Shown here: positions 17,750 through 60,652 of the stretch, one piece after another
Position numbering within the stretch: the first letter of the stretch is position 1
How the letters are laid out: the number at the start of each line of letters is the position of its first letter
IMG/VR virus record: IMGVR_UViG_3300009155_000059
Location: 1-64,000 of that record
Source: a virus
Length of the DNA stretch: 64,000 nucleotides
Direction: 5' to 3' (one strand)
Notes under the pieces: generated by a model
The model's database searches: none
Told to the model about the DNA's origin: nothing
The model's input: the letters and a program-made list of their open reading frames with translations, nothing else
Translations under genes and position numbers: made by a program

Positions 17750-20593
17750 TTAGTTAGTGGAAACTACGCCACCAGCCGCCAAGATTTCCTCGGCGGTAAA
17801 TGACGCACCTGTGCGAAGAACGACCAAATTCAGAGCGATGAACTCGACAGCCTTGGTAGGTTTAACAAAGATCGACACCCATAACTCTTGACGGTCGATT
17901 CTTTCAGGGGTGTTATTAGTGTTGTTACAAACAATCTTGTAAGCTGTCACTCCCCTGCGATTCAGCACATCACCGAGCAAAGGATCAAGTACATTTGTGA
18001 CCTGCGCACGCAGAATAGTGTCGTTAGGTTCGAAGATGAACTGACGTAAAGTGCGTGTCAGCAGTTTCTTCAGGAACGTCATCAACAGTCTCACACTAAC
18101 CCTATCAAGAGCAGTAGGCACACGTTGTAAGGTACGTTGACCGAAAACGATAATACCGTCTTGAGGGAAGTCGACGATCGGGTTTACAACGTTTCCGTTG
18201 CCGTAAAGCAAATCACGTTCGCCCTCGGTAGGACTGTACTCGACCGCCAGAGCAGAATTTAACCTGCCACGAGTTATTCCAGCAGGAGCATACCATGGTT
18301 CGTAATCCCTGGCAGTCCTAGCGATCACCGCTGCAACGTAACCACTCGGCGGCACCCATTCGTATTCACTGGTGAATTGATTAAATCGCTTAATCCAGCT
18401 CCAGTAAAGCGCGCCGTACGAAGTGTTTAAAGCATTGCTGGTCGAACCATCTGGCAGAACGCCATTGCTCCAATCCACAACTTGCTGCGGACGTAACCCG
18501 AATGGGGGATCAACTAACATTAGCACATCGCCACGGCTTTCGCAAACTGCAATTGCTGTGCCGATTACTGCACCAGATGTGATCCCTGGCACAGCCAACA
18601 CACTAATATCAATCGATTCCGGATTCTGGAAAGCGTAAAGGCCAGATGCTAAAGCTGGATTGCCCACAATCGCAGCATCCAAGTAGTTAGAATAGGCACC
18701 AGTAGGAATGCCATTCTGGCCACCCTTAAACGCAGCATTGTACTTGGGCGATGGTAACCTAGTTTCGCCTGGTCCGACCGTCGAAGGCCGAGCTTCCCAG
18801 TTGACGTAAGTACTGCCAGTAACCCCGCCGTACTTGCTTCCTGGATTGATCACATTAGCAATGTAGCGGTCAGCAGTAGGATCAAAGTAGACTTCATCAT
18901 AAGACTCTACGACTTGCCCGCTGCTTTGGCTGATCTGCAATGAGTATCTGCCTACCGGCGACCCTGGGCTAGTCGAATTACTGGTCAGATTAATCTTGTA
19001 ACCCGACGACCAAGTGCCAGCGGATGGCGCTATAAAGAATCCGACTATCTCAGAATAGTAGTTAGTATCTTTTGCACATTGATCGCCAGTTGGATCAGTT
19101 ACACAGCTATTAGGAATGCTTGGATCAAGCAAGCTTGGCGTTGGTAGAACTGTCCGTGTATCATTGAATCCACGGTAGCTTCTAACAAATGGACTGTTGA
19201 TGCCTAATTCTGCAGCGAACTGCAATGTAGAAAGGAAAGTGTAATCTGCGTAAAGCTTGATCGTGGCGGTGTTATTGTTAGTGGTCGTGCTGATTAGCAC
19301 GTAAGTGTCACCATTGACATCACTACCAGGCAATTCGACTGCAATAGCGTTGAAATAGCTCACGCCGTCGATTGTTGCATGGTTATTCAATTGCGATGCC
19401 AGATCGGCTGCAGTGTAAGTGCCAGAAGGCAACGTAAAGTCAAATGACTTAACGGTGCTTGAAATCACATCAAGTCTTACGTTGTTATTGGCTGCCCCTA
19501 TGACGTAAGGGCCAGCATTCGTAGCTGTGAAATGGCCACGCACCTGGTCGAGTGTAAAGTTAGGAACACCAACAGTGTTTCCGAAAGCAATGCTGTCAAC
19601 CAATTGGATCAAAGCACCTGAATCAACACTTTGAAGGACCGCCACAGCTGGCGTTGTGTCACTGGTAGTGCAGATGTAATCTTCAGCGCCCAATAGATTG
19701 TTAATCGCAGTCGCTAATGCGCTAGCTGAAGTGTACGTACCGGCTGGAACAGTGATCATGGCGCCAGTCACGTGCTCGACAGCCACGTAGAATTTGCGAT
19801 TATCAGGCGCAGCGGTGAAGACGAACAGGTCATCCTCATGGAGTTCACCACTCGACACAGTTACTCTGAACGATAAGCCTGTAACAACATCTTCACCAGC
19901 CTCAGTGGTGTAGGTTAAAGCTATCGCCGCCGAAGGGCCATTACCGTGATTATTAGTTGAAAATGCACCAGACAGTACAGGAGAAGACTGCACTCCATCG
20001 TACACTTCGTAGAGCGCTCCGCCGATTCTGGCGCCAGCAGTTGGTTCGCTTGGAGCGCCAACTATTTTAACCGAAAAAGTACGTTGAGCAGTGTAAGTGT
20101 ATGTGCCAGTAACCGTCATTGCAGCAGTGGTGGTGCCGTAAGTGGCTACGTGATATTGGTAAAATGTTGGGGTCGAGACGACTGCAGCAGAAAACGCTAC
20201 TGGATTGCTTGAATCAATCAATTTAAACGGTAAACGAGCAACATCTGGACCCTGGAATAGTGGAATCCTGCCCCACCCGTTAGTCTTGGTAGTTGAATCA
20301 ACAGCTATCTGCTTCACTGGATCTGGGAGAATATCACTGTATTCAACTGCTACGCGCTGGATGTAACAGGAAGTGCCTTGCTCGAAGAAGGCTAGTACGG
20401 ATTGCATCAAGTAGCTGATCGGATCGCCGAACGTGTCAATCGCTTGTGCTGCGCTAGTTACTAAAGTCGGGACTCCGATAGGTCCCCTGCTGCATGCACC
20501 GACGAACGCTGGGATCACACCACCATTGCCTTCAGGCAGCGCACTTAGGTCGACTTCTTTTGTAAATACACCAGGGCTAAGGTACACGGCCAT
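17750..20593 (-). CDS. Tail sheath protein, gp18-like, with large insertion
   Basis: A 947-residue contractile sheath protein. The N-terminus (MAVYLSPGVFTKEVDLS) and C-terminal domain (LLMTFLKKLLTRTLRQFIFEPND, then the RQELWVSIFVKP strands) are typical. T4 gp18 has 659 residues; the extra length is an insertion about residues 150-470 holding two copies of a unit with the pattern LPSGTYTAADLASQLNN / VPAGTYTSASALATAINN. ATG at 20593 follows GGAG with seven-base spacing; a TTG four codons earlier is less likely. Confidence 0.9.
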   Translation of the reverse strand: MAVYLSPGVFTKEVDLSALPEGNGGVIPAFVGACSRGPIGVPTLVTSAAQAIDTFGDPISYLMQSVLAFFEQGTSCYIQRVAVEYSDILPDPVKQIAVDSTTKTNGWGRIPLFQGPDVARLPFKLIDSSNPVAFSAAVVSTPTFYQYHVATYGTTTAAMTVTGTYTYTAQRTFSVKIVGAPSEPTAGARIGGALYEVYDGVQSSPVLSGAFSTNNHGNGPSAAIALTYTTEAGEDVVTGLSFRVTVSSGELHEDDLFVFTAAPDNRKFYVAVEHVTGAMITVPAGTYTSASALATAINNLLGAEDYICTTSDTTPAVAVLQSVDSGALIQLVDSIAFGNTVGVPNFTLDQVRGHFTATNAGPYVIGAANNNVRLDVISSTVKSFDFTLPSGTYTAADLASQLNNHATIDGVSYFNAIAVELPGSDVNGDTYVLISTTTNNNTATIKLYADYTFLSTLQFAAELGINSPFVRSYRGFNDTRTVLPTPSLLDPSIPNSCVTDPTGDQCAKDTNYYSEIVGFFIAPSAGTWSSGYKINLTSNSTSPGSPVGRYSLQISQSSGQVVESYDEVYFDPTADRYIANVINPGSKYGGVTGSTYVNWEARPSTVGPGETRLPSPKYNAAFKGGQNGIPTGAYSNYLDAAIVGNPALASGLYAFQNPESIDISVLAVPGITSGAVIGTAIAVCESRGDVLMLVDPPFGLRPQQVVDWSNGVLPDGSTSNALNTSYGALYWSWIKRFNQFTSEYEWVPPSGYVAAVIARTARDYEPWYAPAGITRGRLNSALAVEYSPTEGERDLLYGNGNVVNPIVDFPQDGIIVFGQRTLQRVPTALDRVSVRLLMTFLKKLLTRTLRQFIFEPNDTILRAQVTNVLDPLLGDVLNRRGVTAYKIVCNNTNNTPERIDRQELWVSIFVKPTKAVEFIALNLVVLRTGASFTAEEILAAGGVVSTN

Positions 20594-20650
20594 TTGATTC
20601 TCCAAATTATACTCTGGATTATCTTTGCCCTGTCAATGCCCAAAATGTGA

Positions 20651-26782: not shown

Positions 26783-27385
26783 ATGAAAACAATTGGCTTA
26801 ACTATATCAATAGACTACAGCGATTATCTAGCTTGCACTATAAAACACAACAGAAGTCTATTTGACAGATATTATATTGGCACGACCTCAAAAGACACAG
26901 CTACGATAGAACTCGCTAATCAACACGACGCAACAGTGATCTTTTTCGATAATGCAGTAAAGGCTGACGGTGCTACATTTAATAAGTCAGGCATCATACA
27001 TCAAATGCAGATCATGGCACATACCAACCACAGTGACAATTGGATGCTCATCCATGACAGTGACTGCATCATCTATCTAGATGCAGAGGAAGTAAATGAT
27101 AACACTAAATTGTACGGCGTGACTAGATTGAACTATCCTACATATAGAGACTATACATCCGATCGCTCATATAAATATTATCACCATGGCCACGGCTATT
27201 TCCAGCTCTACTACCAAAAACACTATATATATGATCATTGGTCTATGGACTGCGGATATTGCGATATAGGCTTCAGATCTTTGTGGAAAGGAAACTATGT
27301 GCTGCTGCAGAACTCATCTGTAGAACATTTAGGTCCACCGTTCGTAAATTGGCAAGGGCGCAAAACACCAACTTGGGGACTGTAA
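26783..27385 (+). CDS. Glycosyltransferase-like protein (GT-A type)
   Basis: A 200-residue protein on the plus strand. Residues 1-95 look like a GT-A Rossmann half: a strand MKTIGLTISI, YYIGTTSKDTATI, then DNWMLIHDSDCII, where D92-S-D94 is the D-x-D-type metal/nucleotide-sugar motif. The C-terminal part is rich in His and Tyr. The stop overlaps the ATG of the radical SAM gene (TAATG), so the two are co-translated. Donor and acceptor are unknown; it may modify the virion or a phage peptide. Confidence 0.6.
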   Translation: MKTIGLTISIDYSDYLACTIKHNRSLFDRYYIGTTSKDTATIELANQHDATVIFFDNAVKADGATFNKSGIIHQMQIMAHTNHSDNWMLIHDSDCIIYLDAEEVNDNTKLYGVTRLNYPTYRDYTSDRSYKYYHHGHGYFQLYYQKHYIYDHWSMDCGYCDIGFRSLWKGNYVLLQNSSVEHLGPPFVNWQGRKTPTWGL

Positions 27386-28392
27386 TGACGCTAGACGACA
27401 TAAAATCAACACTCAGAGAAACAAAAATATCGGCAGCGCAAATAGACCCATTTGGCTATTGCAATGCCAAATGCTGGTTTTGCCCAGTCAGATACGAAGG
27501 CAATCCAGAATCCGGCAAAAAACAGATGTCGCCGGAGTTGCTAGAGAAGATCCTGCAGAATTTAGTGTCTGAGAGATCTGGACTGGTTAGCCCAGCATTT
27601 CGATATTTTTACACAGCGCACTACAATGAAGTGCTATTATACAAGCATTTCGAAGAATTATGCCAGCTGGCAGTGAAGTACGATCTACATCATATGATCC
27701 TAAGCAACGGCACGACTCTAACCAAAGATCGCGTTGACACTATTCTGCAATACTCGACACATGTCGCTGGCATCTGCCTAAACATTCCTTCCTTCAAGAG
27801 ATCTGAATGGTCAGCATTTACAGGGTTTCACGAAGATAAATTCGACTTACTGTTAGAAAACATCAATTATGCGGTGCGAACATTAAAACCATTGATGGAA
27901 ACACAAAGGATCACAATACAAGTAAATGGTGTGAACACTGATTTCGCAAACCATGTCGGCACATTGGGGCCAGCAGCGCCTCCATTCGATCTGTCAGATA
28001 CAGGCACACTGCAACAGAACAAACAGCTAGGAGAAAAATACTTTCCATGGATACCAATATATATGCAACCATCTTTGAGTGATCGAGCTGGCCTGATGCC
28101 ATTGAACGTGTTAACTAACACCAAATTAATCGACAAAGCACGACAAGGCAAAACCAGAGTCACGGGATGTACAAACGGCATGGGTGACAAAGGCAGACCT
28201 TTCAGCTGGATACATGTCAATGCTGTAGGGAAAGTATTCCTATGCTGCAATGATTATTCAATGTCGCATGAGATCGGCGATTTGTCAACACATTCCCTTC
28301 GTGATTTCTGGGGCTCAGATCAACACGCTAGCATGATCGACCAAGCCTTCAACGACATCTGCACGAAATGTTCAAGTGCTAAGTGGGATTAA
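27385..28392 (+). CDS. Radical SAM protein with SPASM-like C-terminus
   Basis: A 335-residue radical SAM enzyme. The cluster motif is YCNAKCWFCP (Cys26, Cys30, Cys33: C-x3-C-x2-C). The C-terminal part has further cysteines: TGCTNGMG, VFLCCND and a final C-x2-C (Cys326/Cys329), as in SPASM/twitch domains that bind auxiliary Fe-S clusters. Such enzymes modify peptides, proteins or sugars. I chose ATG 27385 since the longer frame overlaps the glycosyltransferase by 147 bases. Being paired with a glycosyltransferase points to maturation of a peptide, glycan or virion protein. Substrate unknown. Confidence 0.85.
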   Translation: MTLDDIKSTLRETKISAAQIDPFGYCNAKCWFCPVRYEGNPESGKKQMSPELLEKILQNLVSERSGLVSPAFRYFYTAHYNEVLLYKHFEELCQLAVKYDLHHMILSNGTTLTKDRVDTILQYSTHVAGICLNIPSFKRSEWSAFTGFHEDKFDLLLENINYAVRTLKPLMETQRITIQVNGVNTDFANHVGTLGPAAPPFDLSDTGTLQQNKQLGEKYFPWIPIYMQPSLSDRAGLMPLNVLTNTKLIDKARQGKTRVTGCTNGMGDKGRPFSWIHVNAVGKVFLCCNDYSMSHEIGDLSTHSLRDFWGSDQHASMIDQAFNDICTKCSSAKWD

Positions 28393-39330: not shown

Positions 39331-40290
39331 CTATGCTTCTAATTGTAAATCATCATCAACCATCATATTTACTAATTCATTGAAAGTAACTGACGGCGTC
39401 CAACCCAATACATCACTAGCCAACGTAGGATCTCCTAACAAAAGATCGACCTCAGCAGGCCTGTAAAAATGAGGATCAACTACTAGATATTGACGATAAT
39501 CTAAACCCGCTCTTTCGAATGCTAATTGAACGAATTCCATTACGCAATGCGTCTCTCCCGTGGCGATCACCACATCCAAAGGTGTATCGTGCTGCAATAT
39601 AAGATGCATAGCCTTGACATAATCGCCAACAAATCCCCAGTCTCTTTTGGCGTCGAGGTTACCTAATCTCAGTTCCGTAGCTTTTCCTTTTTTAATCTTG
39701 GCCACCGTGTTGGATATCTTCCTAGTGACAAACTCCAAACCTCGACCAGGACCCTCATGGTTAAAGCAGATCCCTGTGCTACAAAACATGCCATAACTTT
39801 CACGGTAATTGATGGCCATCTGGTGAGCGAATACTTTAGCGACTCCATAAGGGCTACGTGGATAAAATGGAGTAGATTCCTTCTGAGGTATTTCCTGGAC
39901 CTTGCCGAACATCTCACTACTCGATGCTTGATATATGCGAGCATCAGATTTAGTCAATCTCAACGCTTCTAAGAGATTAAGAGCACCAATAGCTGTGACC
40001 TGAGCGGTTAGCCAAGGCTGATCCCAGCTGGTGCCCACAAAGCTTTGCGCAGCTAAATTATAAACCTCTTGATAAGACCGCGCCATAACAATTCTTAATA
40101 GCGATGATAGATCCGTAAGATCACCATCATGTAGATGCAATTGGTCTAAAATGTCTACTATTCTAGACAAGTTAGGTGTAGATATCCTACGAACCACGCC
40201 ATGCACTTCATAGCCAAGACTAAGCAAGTGCCGAGCTAAATATGATCCCGCCATTCCAGTGATACCAGTAATCAAAGCTCTTTTCATCAT
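39331..40290 (-). CDS. gmd: GDP-mannose 4,6-dehydratase
   Basis: A 319-residue short-chain dehydrogenase that converts GDP-mannose to GDP-4-keto-6-deoxymannose, the first step to GDP-L-fucose or GDP-rhamnose. NAD(P) motif is GITGMAGSYLA (9-19), catalytic Y-x3-K is YGVAK (148-152), preceded by SSSEMFG. The FNHEGPGRGLEFVTRKI segment is typical of Gmd. A partner Fcl gene is at 48478. Two ATGs are adjacent (40290/40287). It is about the usual family size but slightly short. Confidence 0.9.
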   Translation of the reverse strand: MMKRALITGITGMAGSYLARHLLSLGYEVHGVVRRISTPNLSRIVDILDQLHLHDGDLTDLSSLLRIVMARSYQEVYNLAAQSFVGTSWDQPWLTAQVTAIGALNLLEALRLTKSDARIYQASSSEMFGKVQEIPQKESTPFYPRSPYGVAKVFAHQMAINYRESYGMFCSTGICFNHEGPGRGLEFVTRKISNTVAKIKKGKATELRLGNLDAKRDWGFVGDYVKAMHLILQHDTPLDVVIATGETHCVMEFVQLAFERAGLDYRQYLVVDPHFYRPAEVDLLLGDPTLASDVLGWTPSVTFNELVNMMVDDDLQLEA

Positions 40291-48107: not shown

Positions 48108-48506
48108 TTAGAATGATTTTTCTTCTACTATGGCACTACCTATTTTAATATTTATTTGTTTTTTTATCGATGATCTTAAGTCATCGTTGATATACAGTTG
48201 CCGAGCCAACTGTATAAATTCATCATCAAACAATTGCTCTCTTTCGTGCTCTCTGATATTATTTTGCATATCCCAGATAGCTTTATTGACAGTGCATAAA
48301 CGATCATATAGATTATATAATTCAGTAAGCATAACTGGCTTGATATGTGAATGCATACCTTGCCACGTCTGTGCTAGTAAATTATATTCTTGTTTAATGT
48401 TGTGTAATTTATCGTCGTCTTTGAAGAAGTGCTTTTTGATTCTTAAAATGCTCAACTTGTCTAATAATTCTCCGACGCTAATTGTTACTCGTACTTCCAC
48501 TCCCAT
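48108..48506 (-). CDS. DUF6165-like protein
   Basis: A 132-residue protein. VRVTISVGELLDKLSILRIKK at the N-terminus is the marker of a family often encoded in lipopolysaccharide and glycan clusters (DUF6165), followed by helical residues. Its start overlaps the Fcl gene's end by 29 bases. A role in carbohydrate metabolism or assembly is likely but undefined. Confidence 0.6.
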   Translation of the reverse strand: MGVEVRVTISVGELLDKLSILRIKKHFFKDDDKLHNIKQEYNLLAQTWQGMHSHIKPVMLTELYNLYDRLCTVNKAIWDMQNNIREHEREQLFDDEFIQLARQLYINDDLRSSIKKQINIKIGSAIVEEKSF

Positions 48507-49431
48507 TTTTCACCATCCGTTGGTAATACTTGATCGTATTTAATAACCCCTCAGCAAGAGCCGTCTCAGCGGCAAAGCCTAATTTATGTAACTTTGAAAC
48601 ATCTAAACAACGCCTTAATTGTCCGTCAGGTTTGCTGCTATCCCAAATCACTTCGCCTTTAAAGTCCATTGCATTGCATAATGCTTGCACTAAATCTGCA
48701 ATTGCTACTTCCTGCCCATTACCGATATTATATGGTCCTAACCCTACCATCTCATATGGCATTATGGACAATTGCGTTATGGCCTTCGCACAGTCTCTCA
48801 CATATAGGAACTCTCTGGAAGCTATACCAGTGCCCCATACCACTAATGGTGTGCCAGCTGTTTTAGCTTCATCGATTTTTCTAATTAACGCTGGAATAAC
48901 ATGGCTAGTTCCAAGATCAAAATTGTCGAACGGACCATACAAATTCGCTGGTATTGCATACGTAATCTTACAGTCATACTGCTGCCGATAGGCCATCGAT
49001 CCGAATAATCCATTTAGCTTGCTTACGCCATAAGCAGCATTCGTTGCCTCAGGATAGCCATACTTCATCAAGTCATCTTCCCTAAATGGCGTCGGCGTAA
49101 GACTGCCATAAGAGCACGCCGTACCAATCATCAATAATCTGACATTTGTCTTGCTGCAAGCTTTTAGCACAGCTCCGTTTATATTATTGGTGGTAGACCA
49201 TAACTCTGCTGGTCGTATCTGATTTAATCCTATTCCACCGCATGCCGCAGCTAAATTTACAACAGTCGTAATACCGTCAGACGTTATCACATCTTCTAAT
49301 TGTCTTTCATCAGTTGCGTCCACTCCGTGGCTTTTGCTTACGCCTATAACATCGATGTCACATTTATTGAATTGGTCTATCACAGCACGCCCGAGAAATC
49401 CGCTGTGACCAATCACGCATACTTTAATCAT
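48478..49431 (-). CDS. fcl: GDP-L-fucose synthase
   Basis: A 317-residue short-chain dehydrogenase-type epimerase/reductase that turns GDP-4-keto-6-deoxymannose into GDP-L-fucose. Motifs: IGHSGFLGRAV (7-17), AAACGGIG (61-68), GTACSYG (103-109) and YGVSK (134-138). ANLYGPFDNFDLGTSHVIPALIRK and SREFLYVRD in the C-terminal part, plus KPDGQLRRCLD, are characteristic of Fcl/WcaG. Its partner Gmd is at 39331. The fucose donor it makes could be used by the cluster's glycosyltransferases. Confidence 0.92.
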   Translation of the reverse strand: MIKVCVIGHSGFLGRAVIDQFNKCDIDVIGVSKSHGVDATDERQLEDVITSDGITTVVNLAAACGGIGLNQIRPAELWSTTNNINGAVLKACSKTNVRLLMIGTACSYGSLTPTPFREDDLMKYGYPEATNAAYGVSKLNGLFGSMAYRQQYDCKITYAIPANLYGPFDNFDLGTSHVIPALIRKIDEAKTAGTPLVVWGTGIASREFLYVRDCAKAITQLSIMPYEMVGLGPYNIGNGQEVAIADLVQALCNAMDFKGEVIWDSSKPDGQLRRCLDVSKLHKLGFAAETALAEGLLNTIKYYQRMVKNGSGSTSNN

Positions 49432-49454: not shown

Positions 49455-49607
49455 TTATTTTTTGGTTTTGACGTCGTCACGATATATAGGTATATCTTTA
49501 GGCGCCTCTATTCCAACTCTGACTTTATTACGATCAACGTCTACTATTTTTATTACGACGTTACCGACAGTGAATGTCTGGTCAATCTTTCGTGTTATTA
49601 TTAACAT
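49455..49607 (-). CDS. csrA: CsrA-family translational regulator
   Basis: A 50-residue protein clearly related to CsrA/RsmA. It starts MLIITRKIDQTFTVGN, continues with VVIKIVDVDRNKVRVGIEAPKD and ends IPIYRDDVKTKK. These match the five-strand CsrA fold including R-V-G-I-x-A-P and the I-P-x-x-R-x-x-V segment. CsrA dimers bind GGA motifs in RNA leaders and usually repress translation. ATG 49607 overlaps the upstream stop (TAATG). Its short length hides it from standard length filters. It could reprogramme host metabolism or time phage expression. Confidence 0.92.
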   Translation of the reverse strand: MLIITRKIDQTFTVGNVVIKIVDVDRNKVRVGIEAPKDIPIYRDDVKTKK

Positions 49608-50059
49608 TAAATTTTCTCATATCCTTGCTTTAAAAGTTTCTTCTGTTCCTTCACCACGCAAGCTACCTTGTAGAAGTTCTTACCATCGGCGCCTGCGCAA
49701 AATCCATCAAAGTCTGGCGACTTTTTGTCCTTGCCAAGCTGACCATTATAAGTATTAAAGCACATCTTGCGTGGATTATCATCAATACACAATAGCACAT
49801 GCGCTCGCACATCTATGCGCTCATGGTCAAATCTGATGCCTTTTTTAGTAAACAGCATGCAGTTAGGTCTATCTCTCAACCCCAAAACGCTAAACTCAGT
49901 CAAGCTAGTCATTGCGCTTTGATTCTCCTTAATTCGTGAAGGATGGACAGTATACCTTTCACTGTTGCATCCTTCGACCACCACCAGCCCATTGGCCAAT
50001 GCGGACATCGAAATTATGTCCACACTCGTGCCATCCATCATGGTCAATGTTTTACTCAT
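49607..50059 (-). CDS. Protein of unknown function upstream of csrA
   Basis: A 150-residue protein co-translated with csrA (TAATG junction). ATG 50059 has CGGAG five bases upstream; the longer frame to 50107 lacks this. Mixed alpha/beta, with KMCFNTYNGQLGKDKKSPDFDGF and Lys-rich C-terminus. No family recognised. A link to CsrA function is inferred from the junction only. Confidence 0.55.
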   Translation of the reverse strand: MSKTLTMMDGTSVDIISMSALANGLVVVEGCNSERYTVHPSRIKENQSAMTSLTEFSVLGLRDRPNCMLFTKKGIRFDHERIDVRAHVLLCIDDNPRKMCFNTYNGQLGKDKKSPDFDGFCAGADGKNFYKVACVVKEQKKLLKQGYEKI

Positions 50060-50111
50060 ACTTACTCCGAATAAGTAACGACTTTCGTCATGTTTACAAT
50101 ACATCAATACA

Positions 50112-53100
50112 TCAAGTTAAACAATTTAAGCTTGACGCAGGGGCCAGCAAGTAAGAAGCGGCCTTAGGTGTGTAATGCTTGGGTTGAATCCTACCGGGCA
50201 GAAGATTGGTCTGAGCCCTTACTCTAACATAGAGATTATATGACATTTTGTCAATCATAGCATCTTCATAAACTCCATCGCTATACTTAAAGTTATAAGA
50301 CACACCGTACACGACCTTTTTGACAATCATATAACTAGTTTGGGTCTCAAGCACCGTTTCTAAGCCAACCCTCCTGACTGATCCACTTAAATTATCATAT
50401 TGGTAACCCAAGAAGTCATTAGGGTTACCACTATTGGTCTTTAAAATCATCTGCCGTAATGTCAGTCTCTGCTCAGGATTCACTAATTCCGCCTTGGCTT
50501 TAATACTGGTGCTCACACTTGACAGCTGCTTGGCCGAATAGCCAACGGCTGCAATAGACTCTGGTCCGTCTCCAGTGATGCCACAAAAAGAGAATAACAG
50601 ATCCTCCGGACCCTCTACACAGCTATATGTAGGCAGCTTAAACGGTGGCGGCGGCAACGGCGGTATCGCAACAGGATAGCACCTGATCGTACCAGCAGAG
50701 ATTGATTCTAACAACGGCACTGGTCCCATGAAAGGCGCGAATTCAATGTTGTAGATCTTCACGAGCTTAGGATCTACTGTTTGCACTTGTGTAACAGTGA
50801 GAGAATCGACAGGAAATACGCCTCTGGTATTAAGCAGCGCATATTGCAAATCAACATCTCGGAATGGTATACTTATAGCGTCTGTTGTAGTATTCCTACT
50901 CCCATAAGCCACGTTAACGCTAAAATAACCATCCGTTGCGTTCTGTAACGTTAAAACCTGCTTGCATATCTCATAAGAGCCTGAAGCTGTGTTAGTATAT
51001 TGCACAGTCGCACCGCTCAAACCGGCAGTGTCGACAATCACGGGCTCAATTGCATAACCGGCATTCCATTTTAAGATATAGCTAAAATTACTGCCATCCT
51101 TCTCAACCGTATCTAATTCAACCACAGCATCAGAAGGCGCAGTGTCCTTGAGATCCTTAACAGCTGCTAAAACATCGGAAGCTGCAGCATTAGCCTGAAT
51201 AGGTCGTGTGTAGACATATCCCGCTTCGGGCACTGTCACCTTAAATTTCTTAGTAAATTCTTTACCTGCAGTCGCCTTAATAACCTGACTAAAAACCTGC
51301 GTGAACGTGTTAGTATTTGTGGTGCCATTGTCAGCAAATACCCTGACAATGCAATTAATATCGCAGCTAGGTACAGAACTAGGTATCGGCTCATCAGACA
51401 AATTCACATTAGGTGCAAATGGATAAACCGTAGTTAATGTTAAATCAAACGAATTGACTATTTTACTGATCCAATCACTCATTGGCACATCGAGACTTTG
51501 ACTGAACGAGGTATAAACGTTATTAGCGCAAGCACCATTAATTCCACGTACCGACCACTTTAAATATTGAATGTTTTTGCTGACATTCGGGTCGCAAGCT
51601 AAAAACGCATCGCAACCAGCACTAGTAGTGTTACATCGGTCAGGCGTGATTGCCACCTGATACTGATTATCTTGACCATTGGCATCTTTATCAATCCCAG
51701 ATACAATTATGTTAAAAGGTGCACTGGCTGTATACGTCGATGTATTAGGGAATTCGTAAGACACTAGCAGATAAATGCCACGCGGTGTGACGGTGCCAGT
51801 GTTAGCCGGAAGCCCTAATATGAATGATCCGCCACTAGCGTTGACCATAAGCTTTTGCGATGCAGCAGTCTTGCTACCAAATTGTGATTTATGCACTAGG
51901 TCCACTGGGTCATACGATAGGTTATTCCTACTATCGATCGTGTTGCGATTTGTACCGTTTGTAAGGATAGTTTTAAAGTACAGTTGTACTTTCTCATCCT
52001 TGGCGGGAGCGCTAAATCCTATAGTAAACGGACCATAAGTTGGATCTATACCTGGGCTGACACTCACAAAATCAACGCCGTAAGTGGTTCCGAAAGATTT
52101 GCCACTTGAATCGACCATAGTGTTAATGAAATTCAATATAGCTGATGCTGTAGTACCTGCGCTATTGCTCACGTAAGTGGCAGTAGCATCTGGAGATGAA
52201 TAAGTGCTGTTGCCATATACAAGGTATAATGTAGCATAATATTCATTGAAAGTAGGTGTGTTAGTCGGCGAATTTTGTATCTCTAAGCTATTTTTAAACT
52301 TTACAGTGAAGATATCACGTTGTGCGCCACCTGAAGCTATCACTTCAGTATCAAATGATCCTGCACCACTCAGGCCACTACCGTCGGTGCTCGTAATGCT
52401 ATAACCTATACCTTGAGACCTGCCGACGAATGCCAGCACGAACGGGTCGCTCTTTGTGCCTGTTCCACTTAGACCAATATCGCTTGCCGCTGTCACAAAA
52501 CCAGCCCTAGACGCTAAAAGCTTAACGAGCATCTCTGGCTTTTCACCATTTGCTAATTCAAACACGAACGGAGAATTTACGCCGTTTTTTTGGAATGTCA
52601 CCTTGTAAGTCCCGCCAGTTGCATTAGGCTGACTGAATGACACCACACTATAATCAGCTCTGCCAGCGCTGACCATTTTAAATCCCATTTGCGGTTGACA
52701 TGGTCTCACATTATAGGCATTGCCAGACGCTACTACCGTAGGCGCTGGTTTATTAGCGCCGGGAAACACATACATAGAACCAGTGCCACTGAGGACTACT
52801 TTTAATGGCTTAGAGCACTGATTTAACGTAGCTGCGCCATCTGGCTGCTTACCATCTGGTGTATCCAAAATAAATTGAGCCACGTGCCACGCCGCTTTGT
52901 TCCCACGCACTCCATTACCTAAGCTGGTTAACGTGTCCCATTGACTTGGAAGATTCCGTGTGAAGTCCCCATAAGTCGTAAAGATGTCATTGCGATTAAA
53001 GCTCTTAGAGAAAGTGTGGTTAACTTTCCTTTGGTCATCATAGCTGATCTCTACCGACAGATTGACGCCGGGATCCTCAAACATGGCTGGGTAATCGTCA

Positions 53101-56100
53101 CAATGCTTAGGAGGAAAATCGCCACTCGGATAAACCTGATTCGCTAAGATGTAGACTTCTATGGTATCCAGAATGTTAACTGGATCTTCGTAACTGGGAA
53201 AATAAGCGGTTAATTCGTCATTAATCACTGCGCTCTTACTTTGCGGAATGCTCCAAAGCCAATTGGCGAATCCTTCCACACTGCTTGTCTTATTTTCAGT
53301 CACTCCTTCCATAAGCTTCTTCGTCAAATTCTGCGACAAGATGCTGACTTGCGCCACCGTGCCTAATCCCTGTTGCTTCCAGAAGTCAACAGTATCGCCA
53401 TAATTGCATGTGACACTAACGACTTTTGGTGGATCGCCAATGCACGTATGCCCTTCGCAGGTGGGCAGTAGAAATGTATTCTTAAACTCTGATGGTGTTG
53501 TGGGATTCCGATAAATTAATTTCAAAAATGCGTTAAATATGTTCAATGGTAAACGAGGTATATCGACAGATTCAGGAGTGCCCCACTTTAGTGTCATTTC
53601 TATGTTCTCGACCAGTCCACACACTATTTCTTTGGTCTCGCACACAATAAGATTATTAACCGCTATCTCCTTGCTATCATAAAAAGGACTGACAAAAAGC
53701 TCAATCAGACACGGACCACCCACAGCTTCAAACAATAAAGTAACTGGGCCAGTCCGATGTATCGGATATTGATATGAGACACCAGTGAATCCTATCGTAA
53801 CACAAAAATTGCCCTGACTGCTTACTTGATCTAAAATAACCGCATCAATCGTAAGCGTGTAGGTGCTACCAGCTATCAAATCTAGATATTGCCTGTATGT
53901 AGATCCACCATTGGACACCAGAATATTATCGAAAGATTTATTGCGGTTCGACCAGTTGCTAATGCCACCAAATGGCACGTTATGAACCGACAAAAGTGAA
54001 TAATCTTCAGGGCACGACAAGTTAAGTTTAATGCCGATAAAGTTATCGACTTCCTGAGTGATACCAAGTGCAACACTAGCGCCAGCGAGATCTATGTCGA
54101 GCCAACTGGTACCATTGAACCCAATCAAATGGCCACTATCTTCATCGAGCGTCACCTCGATTAAAGCAACATCATAAACCTGCGTGGCGTTACTCAATCC
54201 ATCAAAGAAATATTCGGCAAGACCATCAAATCTCAATATCTTTTTAGTGAGCGCATCTAAAATGTAAAACCGATTGGTAAATGAATCGAACCCGACAAAT
54301 GAGCCAACATGCGGTAGAACTTCTGTGGCCTGGTTGCCATCAAGTTGCCGCAACGCTATAGTATATCGTAGATTAGATCCACCATCACCATTGACAGCAA
54401 AGGTCAAGAAATCTACATCGACCGCTTTCGGACTATGAAACCTTATGCTGCCTACCGGTATGACGCCATATGAAGAAATGTCTAAAACATATTTTTCTGT
54501 AACTGCTGATAAATCTGACACTTGGATCGATAACACCGATAACGTAGTGCCGACTTGGGTTAACAAACTAAGTTGCAGATACTTATCGAACGCTAACCCT
54601 ACTATCTCGTAATCATAAGTGTACTTAGCGACCAGCCTATACTCAGCCAACTTTATCACTTGCAGTTGATTGCCTGATACGACCGCTAAAAAGTCATTAA
54701 CCGTATCATAGGCACTAAAATCGACCGCAGAGGAAATGGCCAAATTAGCCACATTATTGCCTTTGACCGATTTAACATATTGGCCAGTCTGATATAGGTA
54801 TTGTTTATCGACATTATTGGCGACACTAATGAATAGCCCATCGTAGTACTTTTTGATTTGACCATGGATTATGCTGAATAACTCAGCTGCATTGAACACA
54901 GTGTACGGTTCAACGCCATGATTGCGATAAACATTAAAAGCTTTACTAAAGTCTGATGTCAACTGTCCATTGGTGACAATCGGACTAATGTTAACGCTGC
55001 AATTTACCGCATTATCCAAAGCGCCTTCAAAATTTATGACGCTGTTGTCAGACAGTGTAAAGCTGCGATTAGAGATGACGAATAACTGCAAATACGCCAG
55101 TGATCTTCTAACAAATCGACACGTCTTGATGTCACTAGCCCGCACTACCACGCTATCTGTTATTACCGTACCGTAAGAGAATGACGATTGCCTTATTAAA
55201 TTGTTTATAACTATATCATACGGACAGATCCGACTATTGCTCGTAGTCAGCAGCAGCTTCGAATTGTTCACGTTTAGATAATCGACAATTGACGGTGTAA
55301 CACACGAATACTTGACCAGACTACTATTAGTAAACACCACTGCGTCGACACCAAACAAGATTGCATGAGTTCCGGAAGTTAAAGTCCCCACGCCAGTTGA
55401 CACGAAAGACAAGCCACTGTTGGTCAATCCTTTGCTAACTGTCGTCGCCCACCCAGGTGTTACTGCAGCAGAACTGCCGTCGAAATCGTTAGACCTGGTG
55501 AGAACATACGGTTTACTGCCGCTACCTAAATCAGTTACGACATAAATCCCATTAGCTTGCTGAAGCAATTGATCTTTGACTAATATACGATCATTAAGCA
55601 GTGGCTGATAGCCGTCTATCCTCATCAAGGTGCGATTCTCACTAGCCGTCAATGTTGCTCCTACTCCAAGGTTGCCATTATGATATGATGCTTTCAATGA
55701 ACTCACTGTTGCACAGGCTACCGGAAGATGATATGTGATCCCGGCGGAGTCACCTGTGGTGATAATACTGGGTCCTGCCAAATGCTGTATGGTCCATTGA
55801 GTCGACGTATCAATAACATTATCAATTGGGGTTAAGAAAGTGTAGCTCGCCCTTAATCCTCCACCATATCTCTCTTTCATGCTTACGATCAATTGATCTA
55901 AATATGTGGCAAGATCTCCAACTTGCCGTAAAGCCGGTGTGCTCAGATCTATGATAAAATGTACGTCAAGCGGCGTCGATTCATTCTGACACGCTAAGGC
56001 TTGATCATCGATGCAATTGCCAAGCAACGCATTATCTGTTATCCGCGGAAATGTACTCCTGCTTGTTTTATTGACCTTATCTTGTGTAATTCTGACAGCA

Positions 56101-56285
56101 TTTGTCTGGATCGGCTTACACACTGTCGTGATGTTTTTATGAGCTAATTGATTCGCATACGCTAACAAGGTATCCTGATTATATGAATTATTCTCACAGA
56201 AAGTGTTGCGTGTTTCGATATCGACTACAAGGACCTCGGAATAGTTATTGATCCCGATACCACTACCATTAAGATTTATTTCCAT
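50112..56285 (-). CDS. Very large virion protein, fibre/adhesin-like
   Basis: A 2057-residue protein. Near residues 105-180 there is a von-Willebrand-A-like pattern (DVHFIIDLSTPALRQVGDL). A domain around 200-280 reads DGYQPLLNDRILVKDQLLQQANGIYVVTD with VLTRSNDFD, the repeated tail-fibre motif. The rest is beta-rich with several cysteine pairs (e.g. CEGHTCIGDPP and CDINC), probably Ig-like or beta-sandwich domains. No signal peptide. Long modular phage proteins of this kind are usually fibres or adhesins that contact the host. Its own transcript context is minus strand, far from the baseplate genes. Confidence 0.6.
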   Translation of the reverse strand: MEINLNGSGIGINNYSEVLVVDIETRNTFCENNSYNQDTLLAYANQLAHKNITTVCKPIQTNAVRITQDKVNKTSRSTFPRITDNALLGNCIDDQALACQNESTPLDVHFIIDLSTPALRQVGDLATYLDQLIVSMKERYGGGLRASYTFLTPIDNVIDTSTQWTIQHLAGPSIITTGDSAGITYHLPVACATVSSLKASYHNGNLGVGATLTASENRTLMRIDGYQPLLNDRILVKDQLLQQANGIYVVTDLGSGSKPYVLTRSNDFDGSSAAVTPGWATTVSKGLTNSGLSFVSTGVGTLTSGTHAILFGVDAVVFTNSSLVKYSCVTPSIVDYLNVNNSKLLLTTSNSRICPYDIVINNLIRQSSFSYGTVITDSVVVRASDIKTCRFVRRSLAYLQLFVISNRSFTLSDNSVINFEGALDNAVNCSVNISPIVTNGQLTSDFSKAFNVYRNHGVEPYTVFNAAELFSIIHGQIKKYYDGLFISVANNVDKQYLYQTGQYVKSVKGNNVANLAISSAVDFSAYDTVNDFLAVVSGNQLQVIKLAEYRLVAKYTYDYEIVGLAFDKYLQLSLLTQVGTTLSVLSIQVSDLSAVTEKYVLDISSYGVIPVGSIRFHSPKAVDVDFLTFAVNGDGGSNLRYTIALRQLDGNQATEVLPHVGSFVGFDSFTNRFYILDALTKKILRFDGLAEYFFDGLSNATQVYDVALIEVTLDEDSGHLIGFNGTSWLDIDLAGASVALGITQEVDNFIGIKLNLSCPEDYSLLSVHNVPFGGISNWSNRNKSFDNILVSNGGSTYRQYLDLIAGSTYTLTIDAVILDQVSSQGNFCVTIGFTGVSYQYPIHRTGPVTLLFEAVGGPCLIELFVSPFYDSKEIAVNNLIVCETKEIVCGLVENIEMTLKWGTPESVDIPRLPLNIFNAFLKLIYRNPTTPSEFKNTFLLPTCEGHTCIGDPPKVVSVTCNYGDTVDFWKQQGLGTVAQVSILSQNLTKKLMEGVTENKTSSVEGFANWLWSIPQSKSAVINDELTAYFPSYEDPVNILDTIEVYILANQVYPSGDFPPKHCDDYPAMFEDPGVNLSVEISYDDQRKVNHTFSKSFNRNDIFTTYGDFTRNLPSQWDTLTSLGNGVRGNKAAWHVAQFILDTPDGKQPDGAATLNQCSKPLKVVLSGTGSMYVFPGANKPAPTVVASGNAYNVRPCQPQMGFKMVSAGRADYSVVSFSQPNATGGTYKVTFQKNGVNSPFVFELANGEKPEMLVKLLASRAGFVTAASDIGLSGTGTKSDPFVLAFVGRSQGIGYSITSTDGSGLSGAGSFDTEVIASGGAQRDIFTVKFKNSLEIQNSPTNTPTFNEYYATLYLVYGNSTYSSPDATATYVSNSAGTTASAILNFINTMVDSSGKSFGTTYGVDFVSVSPGIDPTYGPFTIGFSAPAKDEKVQLYFKTILTNGTNRNTIDSRNNLSYDPVDLVHKSQFGSKTAASQKLMVNASGGSFILGLPANTGTVTPRGIYLLVSYEFPNTSTYTASAPFNIIVSGIDKDANGQDNQYQVAITPDRCNTTSAGCDAFLACDPNVSKNIQYLKWSVRGINGACANNVYTSFSQSLDVPMSDWISKIVNSFDLTLTTVYPFAPNVNLSDEPIPSSVPSCDINCIVRVFADNGTTNTNTFTQVFSQVIKATAGKEFTKKFKVTVPEAGYVYTRPIQANAAASDVLAAVKDLKDTAPSDAVVELDTVEKDGSNFSYILKWNAGYAIEPVIVDTAGLSGATVQYTNTASGSYEICKQVLTLQNATDGYFSVNVAYGSRNTTTDAISIPFRDVDLQYALLNTRGVFPVDSLTVTQVQTVDPKLVKIYNIEFAPFMGPVPLLESISAGTIRCYPVAIPPLPPPPFKLPTYSCVEGPEDLLFSFCGITGDGPESIAAVGYSAKQLSSVSTSIKAKAELVNPEQRLTLRQMILKTNSGNPNDFLGYQYDNLSGSVRRVGLETVLETQTSYMIVKKVVYGVSYNFKYSDGVYEDAMIDKMSYNLYVRVRAQTNLLPGRIQPKHYTPKAASYLLAPASSLNCLT

Positions 56286-57033: not shown

Positions 57034-57730
57034 AATATCGCTCCAACCTGCTTAATACTACATGCATGTTATCTACCTTAGTCTTACCTTGCCGCACTAC
57101 CATAGAATGAGCACACCCCACCAACACGCCGTCGCCGATATCTGAAATGCATCCGGCAAAATCCAATTTACCGTCACCTAGCCATTGTGTTCCATGGCCA
57201 GGTAACACATCAACAGTATCTATTATGGCGACACTTTTCATAGGCAAAGACTTCCTAATACTAATATTGATATTATTCAAGATCAACATAGCTTCTAACT
57301 TATAAGACCTGAATTGTTTTGAATGATTAAGTAACCACCAATAATACGGACACACCACAGTCACACCTAATGGTATTAAAGAACTAGCGAACTCCATCGC
57401 TCTATCATAATGATCATCGTAGTGCTTTCTACTGTCGAATTGTAAGCTCAGCCACTTGACTTTATAATAACCTAATAATCCAGTTAGCTTTGTATTAGTT
57501 AAGTCCTCAACCGTGATATTAAATCCGACCAATGCTAAGTTCGATGCTATCAATTTTCCTTTAATATGCTTGTGCTCATCGTCAGACAACTGAGTAAATG
57601 ACTTATACTTATGTTTCCGATACCACACGCGTGAAAAGGACAAGGCCTTGGTGTGAGCCAAGGCCTCGTCAAGATCATCGCTAATCTCATCTAAATATGC
57701 GAATTTATTAGATGATGCAAACGTCATCAT
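57026..57730 (-). CDS. Protein of unknown function next to the PurZ-like gene
   Basis: A 234-residue alpha/beta protein overlapping the PurZ-like gene by 23 bases. It has KWLSLQFDSRKHYDDHYDRAMEFASSLIPLGVTVVCPYY in the middle and IDTVDVLPGHGTQW plus DFAGCISDIGDGVLVGC near the end, a possible Rossmann or TIM-like arrangement. No family recognised. Tight coupling to the purine enzyme suggests a related metabolic role. Confidence 0.5.
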   Translation of the reverse strand: MMTFASSNKFAYLDEISDDLDEALAHTKALSFSRVWYRKHKYKSFTQLSDDEHKHIKGKLIASNLALVGFNITVEDLTNTKLTGLLGYYKVKWLSLQFDSRKHYDDHYDRAMEFASSLIPLGVTVVCPYYWWLLNHSKQFRSYKLEAMLILNNINISIRKSLPMKSVAIIDTVDVLPGHGTQWLGDGKLDFAGCISDIGDGVLVGCAHSMVVRQGKTKVDNMHVVLSRLERYYD

Positions 57731-58829
57731 AAGCTGGCCCAGTCCCTACCATTACTACTGGTAACCTCAATTCATCTTCGATCTTGTGCACGAACGACTG
57801 CACTTTTTGAGGTAACTTATTGTACTCCTTCACCCCGTAACATGACCAATCGATATAATTAACGAATGTCAGTACCAATTTTGTAGCTCCATTGCTTAGA
57901 GCCGCCTGTTTGGCCTGCTGCGCGCTAAATGAGAACATCCGGCGCTGACGCTTAGTGACCGTGGTAATTTCGATACCACGAATGACATCAGGCGGAGCGC
58001 CACATTCAGCTGCTATTTGCTCTATTGTTAACTCGTGTTGATCGGGGTAACAATCTCCGCTGTAGCCTATGACCTTACCGTCCTCGATTACGTTACCAAC
58101 TCGAATAGGATGACATCTAAGCACTAAGTACACATCACCCATACACTGATGTGGCAATCCAAGGTCACTAAGATTTTGTATTGCGGTGGTGCTACGTGAA
58201 GTACATTGGGGATAATGACTACCATGATTAATATCTAATCCGAACCCTTGGCTACCCTCATGGAGAATTGTCATCCCACCACGCATCATAGTAGTAAGAT
58301 ATTCTGGAAGCGACATTCCACTACATTGTTTGCTTGCCATCAATGGTGCTATTTCAGCATAATCTCTAGCGAGTTTGACGTCCTGCTTGCGCAATATTTT
58401 GTCCGATAAACAGGTGGCGCAACCCTGCATTGTGCTTGCCACATGTTTAGTGCTATCTGACCCACACGCTTCTCGCTCCTGATGCTCTTTCGTGATCACA
58501 GCAGCACGATCATGAATCATTAACTTAATGTCGTGACCAACCTGATCTAATTCCGCCTGCAACGTGTCAAGCTTAAATGCGCTAGTAGCACCCATAATAA
58601 CGGTCGGATCATATTTATCTAACCATTTACGCATTATAGTTGGCGCTGGTAAAGCCTTGCTGACAAATTTGCTCCCATCTGGTGATACAGCTGTATGGCC
58701 AGCATTCGCCATATTCGTGTTGGTAAGTATCTCAGGTCTGTACCTGTACACTAAGGCGCTGCTGACATGACCTTTACCTGTGCTACCGTAGTTGCCGTCT
58801 GTTACCACATTGAATTTTCCCTTTTGCAT
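57708..58829 (-). CDS. PurZ-like adenylosuccinate-synthetase homologue
   Basis: A 373-residue PurA-superfamily protein. The nucleotide loop reads DGNYGSTGKG; PurA has GDEGKG with a catalytic Asp, here Ser16 (GSTGKG, 15-20). NAGHT (42-46) keeps the catalytic His. EGSQGFGLDINHG (191-203) and the STTAI element match the substrate region, and VGTGPAYDD the C-terminus. PurZ proteins, which make the 2-aminoadenine precursor from dGMP and aspartate, carry this loss of Asp, as I recall from the S-2L literature. So the likely reaction is dGMP + Asp + NTP, not IMP. Family members of other specificity cannot be excluded by eye. Confidence 0.75.
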   Translation of the reverse strand: MQKGKFNVVTDGNYGSTGKGHVSSALVYRYRPEILTNTNMANAGHTAVSPDGSKFVSKALPAPTIMRKWLDKYDPTVIMGATSAFKLDTLQAELDQVGHDIKLMIHDRAAVITKEHQEREACGSDSTKHVASTMQGCATCLSDKILRKQDVKLARDYAEIAPLMASKQCSGMSLPEYLTTMMRGGMTILHEGSQGFGLDINHGSHYPQCTSRSTTAIQNLSDLGLPHQCMGDVYLVLRCHPIRVGNVIEDGKVIGYSGDCYPDQHELTIEQIAAECGAPPDVIRGIEITTVTKRQRRMFSFSAQQAKQAALSNGATKLVLTFVNYIDWSCYGVKEYNKLPQKVQSFVHKIEDELRLPVVMVGTGPAYDDVCII

Positions 58830-59614: not shown

Positions 59615-60652
59615 CTAGAATTCAACTGATGGGCTAACATCAGCGCCCCAACGAGCGATAGCCAACTCTAGTCCTTCTTGCGCAGAGTGGTTGCTGAAAT
59701 GCTTAACGAACGGCCATGTGTTGTATTCACTACAAAAATGAATGTTCTGCCTCCGCTCCTCAGCGATATTATTAACCGCTTGCATGAAACAATCAGCCTC
59801 AGCCTTAAATCGCTCAACACGCACATGAGGCGGCACGTCAGGATTAGTCCCGTAAAAATGCAATTTACCATCGATACCTTTAGCATCCATGTCTACACCG
59901 AACACAAATATCTCATCATACTTCATCCATTCAGCCACTTGCAAAGCTGCGAAGACACTGCTACGACCAATGGCTAATCCTCTTAGTAGATCAGTGCTGA
60001 ACGTTTGTTGTCCCAAATTCCTAAGCCTCAGATGATTTGCGTGACAATTTGCAATACTGCTACCTGTGACAATGATTCCTTTGTAGTCAGCCAATAGCGC
60101 TTTATGCCTTCGATATTGGCTACTATCAAAGAAGCACCAGTATTGAGTTGGCCATACTCTTGTGTCTGGATTATTAATACTGCAAATATCGATCCGTTTT
60201 TTATCCTTGAGCTCTGCCAGATCTACGGTAGCAATGCTCGGTCCGTTCCCAATTATCATCAAAGCACGCCCTACCCCCACGTCTTTCAACCGATTTATGA
60301 AAGCAGACTGAACTGGTAAATCTTTGTCACTCGAATATTGGATTACCGGCCCTCGCCGTCTCGTCACTTGCTGCGACGACGGCTGAGACGGCGACTTGAC
60401 GCCAGCCCTGCTGGCATTATAAAGATTTACTCTTGACTCATTCGCTTGTTCTATGATTTGTGATACTGGCTGTCTAGTACTAGGATCTAATCTGACCACA
60501 GATGGTGCGACGTAATTTGGATTCTGTTGCTGCCTCATTACAGGCGGCTTGGGCGCAGCAACATTCTGTTGATTTTTATTTTGCTCCACGTACACTCGAA
60601 CGGCTTTAGGAAGCTGAATATTTACCTTTTGCCGTCTTGGATTAATCATCAA
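59615..60652 (-). CDS. DUF115-like (glycosyltransferase-fold) protein with disordered N-terminus
   Basis: A 345-residue protein. Residues 1-110 are Gln/Pro/Ser-rich and probably disordered. Residues 125-345 include RALMIIGNGPSIATVDLAEL and YWCFFDSSQYRRHKALL, with GIIVTGSSIANC and FVFGVDMDAKG. This G-N-G-P-S pattern is that of DUF115/6-hydroxymethylpterin or motility-associated glycosyltransferase-like proteins. The acceptor is unknown. It may extend the glycan work of the 39-49 kb cluster. Confidence 0.55.
   Translation of the reverse strand: MMINPRRQKVNIQLPKAVRVYVEQNKNQQNVAAPKPPVMRQQQNPNYVAPSVVRLDPSTRQPVSQIIEQANESRVNLYNASRAGVKSPSQPSSQQVTRRRGPVIQYSSDKDLPVQSAFINRLKDVGVGRALMIIGNGPSIATVDLAELKDKKRIDICSINNPDTRVWPTQYWCFFDSSQYRRHKALLADYKGIIVTGSSIANCHANHLRLRNLGQQTFSTDLLRGLAIGRSSVFAALQVAEWMKYDEIFVFGVDMDAKGIDGKLHFYGTNPDVPPHVRVERFKAEADCFMQAVNNIAEERRQNIHFCSEYNTWPFVKHFSNHSAQEGLELAIARWGADVSPSVEF

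Follow-up and report, generated by a model that had tools for sequence, protein, structure and literature searches.

The minus strand of a 64,000-nucleotide stretch of viral DNA (hereafter the window), part of a virus record of 75,177 bases, encodes a 50-residue homologue of CsrA. In divergent relatives of this phage, csrA is mostly found directly behind the gene for a protein termed here P, and it appears to belong to a P-(csrA)-C gene cassette, as an often retained member rather than a one-off passenger. While csrA genes in phages are as such already known, the conserved cassette is new here, and no description of it was found in the literature searched. It is considered fairly probable that the gene product is a functional phage CsrA, coupled to P and self-repressing, which is kept as a cassette member and tunes translation in infection.

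A CsrA family protein encoded by a tailed phage

The initial annotation had placed a CsrA homologue at 49455-49607 and had left the strand unstated. The open reading frame was recovered at exactly this position on the minus strand, where it encodes MLIITRKIDQTFTVGNVVIKIVDVDRNKVRVGIEAPKDIPIYRDDVKTKK (50 aa), and both elements of the CsrA pattern that had been pointed out, RVGIEAP and IYR, are present in the protein. The plus-strand reading of the same interval does not give a CsrA protein. The profile search that had been proposed as a check returned a significant match to PF02599 (59.6 bits, gathering score 27, E 2.9e-16), with residues 1-49 aligned to profile positions 1-50 of 53. The same residues matched phrog_9500, 'CsrA-like regulator' (E 1.9e-12, 48 bits), and PDB chains of CsrA, RsmA, and RsmE were matched at E values of about 1e-8; a chance open reading frame is ruled out by the profile scores. 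The product scored below the cut-offs of both NCBIfam equivalog models, TIGR00202 (51.1 against 70.1) and NF002469 (53.7 against 73), in part because it is short, and it is therefore described as a member of the CsrA family and not as an equivalog of cellular CsrA. It was the single CsrA match in the record.

The RNA-contacting positions of E. coli CsrA, L4, R6, V42, and R44, are occupied by I4, R6, I41, and R43 in the window protein. The two arginines are thus identical, with isoleucine replacing the leucine and the valine, and both arginines were invariant in 14/14 CsrA proteins of the lineage. The window protein shares with bacterial CsrA and RsmA (PF02599; E. coli CsrA 1Y00, RsmE 2JPP) one full-length domain, these two arginines, and an APK motif, but differs from them in its length of 50 residues, in a one-residue deletion mid-protein, and in having almost no C-terminal helix or tail; it stops shortly past the last conserved strand. 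Other members of the lineage are 57-104 residues long. We infer that the protein would form a small dimer, bind RNA leaders that contain GGA, and thereby block or reshape the translation of these RNAs.

That the gene is phage-encoded was upheld by its presence in a virus record and by the other genes of the window, which include those for a tail sheath, baseplate proteins, a DnaB-type replicative helicase, the recombinase UvsX, and PhoH, and which therefore indicate a phage with a contractile tail. As the contigs of several relatives measure 157-408 kb, the 75-kb record is probably a fragment. The tail sheath (17750-20605, minus strand) is 951 residues long, about twice the length of the best PHROG profile, and apparently carries a large insertion. 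One of the few plus-strand genes, at 27238-28392, encodes a radical SAM protein that weakly matches spiro-SPASM and viperin models, reaching the cut-off of neither.

The csrA gene lies in a minus-strand run that encodes, in order, a 2057-residue structural-type protein, P, CsrA, and a GDP-fucose synthase-like protein (Table 1). The stop codon of P overlaps the start codon of csrA as TAATG. CsrA would probably be made by translational coupling to P, on a transcript that also carries structural and sugar-nucleotide genes, and the GDP-L-fucose synthase-like gene is probably co-transcribed with csrA. Related fucose synthase-like genes are likewise found downstream of csrA in two relatives, G001 and G002. 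A GDP-mannose 4,6-dehydratase-like gene (39331-40290) and the fucose synthase-like gene (48478-49431), minus strand, have a glycosyltransferase gene between them, and from these three genes a phage GDP-fucose route is possible. A further minus-strand gene (59615-60652) weakly matches a phage family of alpha-2,3-sialyltransferases.

Table 1. Features at the csrA locus of the window
Feature	Position	Strand	Basis
csrA, predicted CsrA-family RNA-binding protein, 50 aa	49455..49607	-	PF02599, phrog_9500, RNA-contact residues kept
P, 166 aa, no family assignment	49607..50107	-	Upstream homologues in 12 records, alignments, models
Probable virion structural protein, 2057 aa, directly upstream of P	50112..56285	-	Weak matches in PHROGs, among them a virion structural protein
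GDP-L-fucose synthase-like gene, 23 nt downstream of csrA	48478..49431	-	NF047922 243 bits (cut-off 500, not reached); PF01370 E 1.4e-47
CAAGGAT, CsrA-consensus-like site and possible csrA ribosome-binding site	49621..49627	-	Sequence, leader scan, lineage comparison

A conserved P-(csrA)-C cassette

Relatives of the phage were gathered by means of its PurZ-like gene (57708-58829, minus strand), a procedure that is blind to csrA and so avoids selection on it. The csrA gene was present in all of the first four divergent relatives, in which the PurZ-like gene is 47-55% identical, and a wider profile search found it in 10/26 further records, many of which are short, fragmentary, or more distant. 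A homologue of P lies directly upstream of csrA on the same strand, with gaps of -1 to 414 nt, in 12 records, which are the window's record together with G001-G004, G009-G013, G018, and G030 (G011 and G012 being near-duplicates). In nine of these 12, csrA is followed by the gene for protein C, of about 90-105 residues with an EFDLxATKxERD signature.

P and C were also found close together, with no csrA between them, in five related records (G015, G016, G021, G023, and G027). The first of these has a weaker csrA located far from P and C, and csrA is present without P in G019 and G026. Because P and C are kept without csrA in this related group, they form the steadier pair, of which csrA is an optional, often-present third member. 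The distance from the PurZ-like gene to csrA varies from about 8 to 30 kb across relatives, and the cassette therefore stayed intact while its surroundings changed. In the window's phage the cassette is reduced, with P cut to its C-terminal part and no gene C in the record. In the relatives L122, L125, and L128, P and C are adjacent with no csrA, and an epimerase-like gene comes next.

Across the phages, csrA distances were correlated with those of P (Mantel r 0.60, p 0.011) and of the PurZ-like gene (r 0.57, p 0.020), whereas the correlation between P and PurZ (r 0.81) was stronger than that between csrA and P. This pattern fits mostly vertical descent with some replacement of csrA. A FastTree tree of CsrA, built from a short alignment, had mostly weak support, and no origin is therefore claimed for CsrA. 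The PurZ-like gene itself scored 211 bits against NF038379, under the cut-off of 300, and has GSTGKG, its relatives GSCGKG, at the site of the catalytic Asp of PurA. The gene suggests 2-aminoadenine DNA metabolism in this large-phage lineage.

Protein P

The window's P has 166 residues, compared with 221-312 in its relatives, and alignments and models indicate that essentially the C-terminal domain is retained. No family was found for P in Pfam and PHROGs, where scattered weak matches alone were returned, the Pfam ones mostly zinc-ribbon-like. There was no match among PDB sequences, one member (L085) had no match in 50,697 phage records, and no P was found in 59 Planctomycetota genomes in a search that ran without a positive control. 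The predicted full-length model of a relative of P (mean pLDDT 77) comprises an N-terminal beta barrel that is weakly SH3/Tudor/KOW-like (VIA-align Z up to 5.9), a Cys-rich region that weakly matches zinc ribbons, a linker without order, and a conserved C-terminal alpha/beta domain, modelled with confidence, whose nearest folds are triphosphate-tunnel and WGR (VIA-align Z 5.4 at most). With Z of 5.9 at most, these likenesses are too weak for the fold of P to be named from any of them. Foldseek searches at E 0.001 or better gave no match in the PDB with the P models and none in BFVD with the full-length model.

In the FliW-CsrA and CesT-CsrA systems, CsrA works with a protein partner, which offers an analogy only for P. 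FliW-regulated CsrA has a C-terminal extension, and the window CsrA is without one. No relation of P to FliW or CesT was detected, either by sequence, in Pfam and the PDB, or as a significant likeness of fold, in a search that can miss folds. The gene order suggests that P may contact CsrA. One further interpretation is that the whole cassette is dedicated to post-transcriptional control in a lineage of large uncultivated phages, where P and C would assist CsrA in setting how much is translated, or in what order, in infection, the window carrying a stripped-down version; this is regarded as unlikely.

The csrA leader and possible phage targets

The CAAGGAT sequence lies 14 nt before the csrA start, where it falls within the codons that specify GYE, the conserved end of P. 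ANGGA, the core of the CsrA motif, was found within 25 nt before the start in 11/14 csrA genes of the lineage against 12/44 control leaders (Fisher p 0.001), where the controls were homology-anchored and the test ignores the relatedness of the sequences; PurZ leaders alone had it in 11/25. An earlier comparison based on naive longest-ORF starts (p 3e-7) was biased by miscalled starts and was dropped in favour of the homology-anchored controls. The enrichment hints at autorepression of csrA and is treated as a lead, not a result; CsrA would then probably repress its own ribosome-binding site. Rfam models, applied to the window at gathering score, returned no CsrB/RsmY-like decoy RNA, and the record of 75,177 bases was free of GGA-dense stretches.

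It could be that CsrA acts on the leaders of phage late or glycan genes, its own included, and so sets the order in which they are translated. Besides the ANGGA enrichment, the position of csrA between structural and sugar-nucleotide genes, the TAATG overlap, and an AAGGAT sequence in the fucose synthase leader argue for such a switch. Note, however, that GGA also serves ribosome binding, and that the motif coincides in part with the ribosome-binding site, in which GGA is frequent in any case. Moreover, ANGGA precedes just 3/15 of the window genes that have homologues, and the csrA leader has no hairpin with GGA, its fold being no better than that of shuffled sequences (z -0.09). The initial annotation had raised the timing of phage translation as one role for the protein, which is reasonable, the nearest evidence being ANGGA ahead of the csrA starts in the lineage and published work on other phages (PMC8450108, PMC11879866); as the main explanation, a switch directed mainly at phage leaders is a possibility that we hold tentatively and place short of probable.

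Discussion

The initial annotation had made no mention of the conserved gene upstream of csrA. It had called csrA easily overlooked, which does not hold in general, because surveys of phage CsrA exist and one such gene has been the subject of a knock-down experiment. A survey in 2020 found csrA in 30/2517 phages (PMC7366521), and a study in 2021 found many more in GenBank and IMG/VR (PMC8450108). Knock-down of the csrA homologue of coliphage PTXU04 led to smaller plaques (PMC11879866). The window CsrA resembles the CsrA proteins of VvAW1, Vibrio 1.232.O, the JC1/Bcep22 group, PTXU04, and the Pseudomonas RsmM phages (phrog_9500) in being a small protein of the same family in a tailed phage, but is only 33-41% identical to the other phage CsrA records found. 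CsrT of Legionella ICEs and the CsrA of pMBA19a (PMC7366521) are likewise carried on mobile elements; these are, however, conjugative elements and plasmids, whereas the window csrA is in a virus with tail genes.

Host rewiring, the other role that had been raised, is plausible on the same footing. In its strongest form CsrA would act mainly on host mRNAs, such as those for cas, motility, and surface-polysaccharide genes, and would impair defence or divert metabolism. In Serratia, three CRISPR-Cas systems are repressed by RsmA, and RsmA-encoding phages tend to infect hosts that have RsmA (PMC8450108). Within the present lineage, some CsrA proteins are close to planctomycete CsrA. That of G001 shares about 90% identity across the aligned core with the product of a csrA gene (L102:1501-1740) on an apparently chromosomal contig of a Planctomycetota MAG; this likeness is a hint that some members infect planctomycetes, and such CsrA proteins may act on host targets. 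The window CsrA, however, reaches only about 51-53% identity with the bacterial proteins that match it best, which are from Ignavibacteria, Kapabacteria, and related genomes, and an anti-CRISPR role for the phage proteins has itself only been proposed (PMC8450108). A mainly host-directed function is accordingly judged rather unlikely.

The reduced state of the locus could also mean that the window csrA is a degenerate passenger, a shortened remnant without a selected role. The protein is shorter than any other CsrA of the lineage and without the C-terminal helix, P is shortened, and gene C is lost. Against this, the gene has an undamaged reading frame, none of the RNA-contact positions is lost, the protein scores high against the family, and a truncated CsrA chain of 49 residues is present in a solved structure (5z38_E). 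In addition, csrA is identical in a second contig, L002, which matches 20,150 bases around the gene at 99.85%, too close a match to the window for selection to be tested. A passenger is therefore thought very unlikely.

We know of no packaging signal for a virion CsrA. That the protein is delivered with the DNA and acts at once on entry is highly improbable, even though the window csrA follows a structural-type gene and purified virions of JC1, in which csrA lies beside the capsid gene, gave one CsrA peptide, since the JC1 authors considered one peptide insufficient for confirmation and most relatives have csrA in the P-C cassette and not beside capsid genes (PMC9144972 for JC1).

We therefore return to the reading of a functional, P-coupled, and probably self-repressing CsrA, whose main use would most likely be the tuning of translation during infection, on the mRNAs of the phage, of the host, or of both. 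The csrA genes of phages are often taken for stray moron genes. The retention of csrA in divergent large phages, mostly behind P, suggests that some phages depend on CsrA-type control of translation in their own programme. P and CsrA provide a defined gene pair in which to seek a viral CsrA partner, and P, if it binds CsrA, would be a new kind of CsrA-regulating protein.
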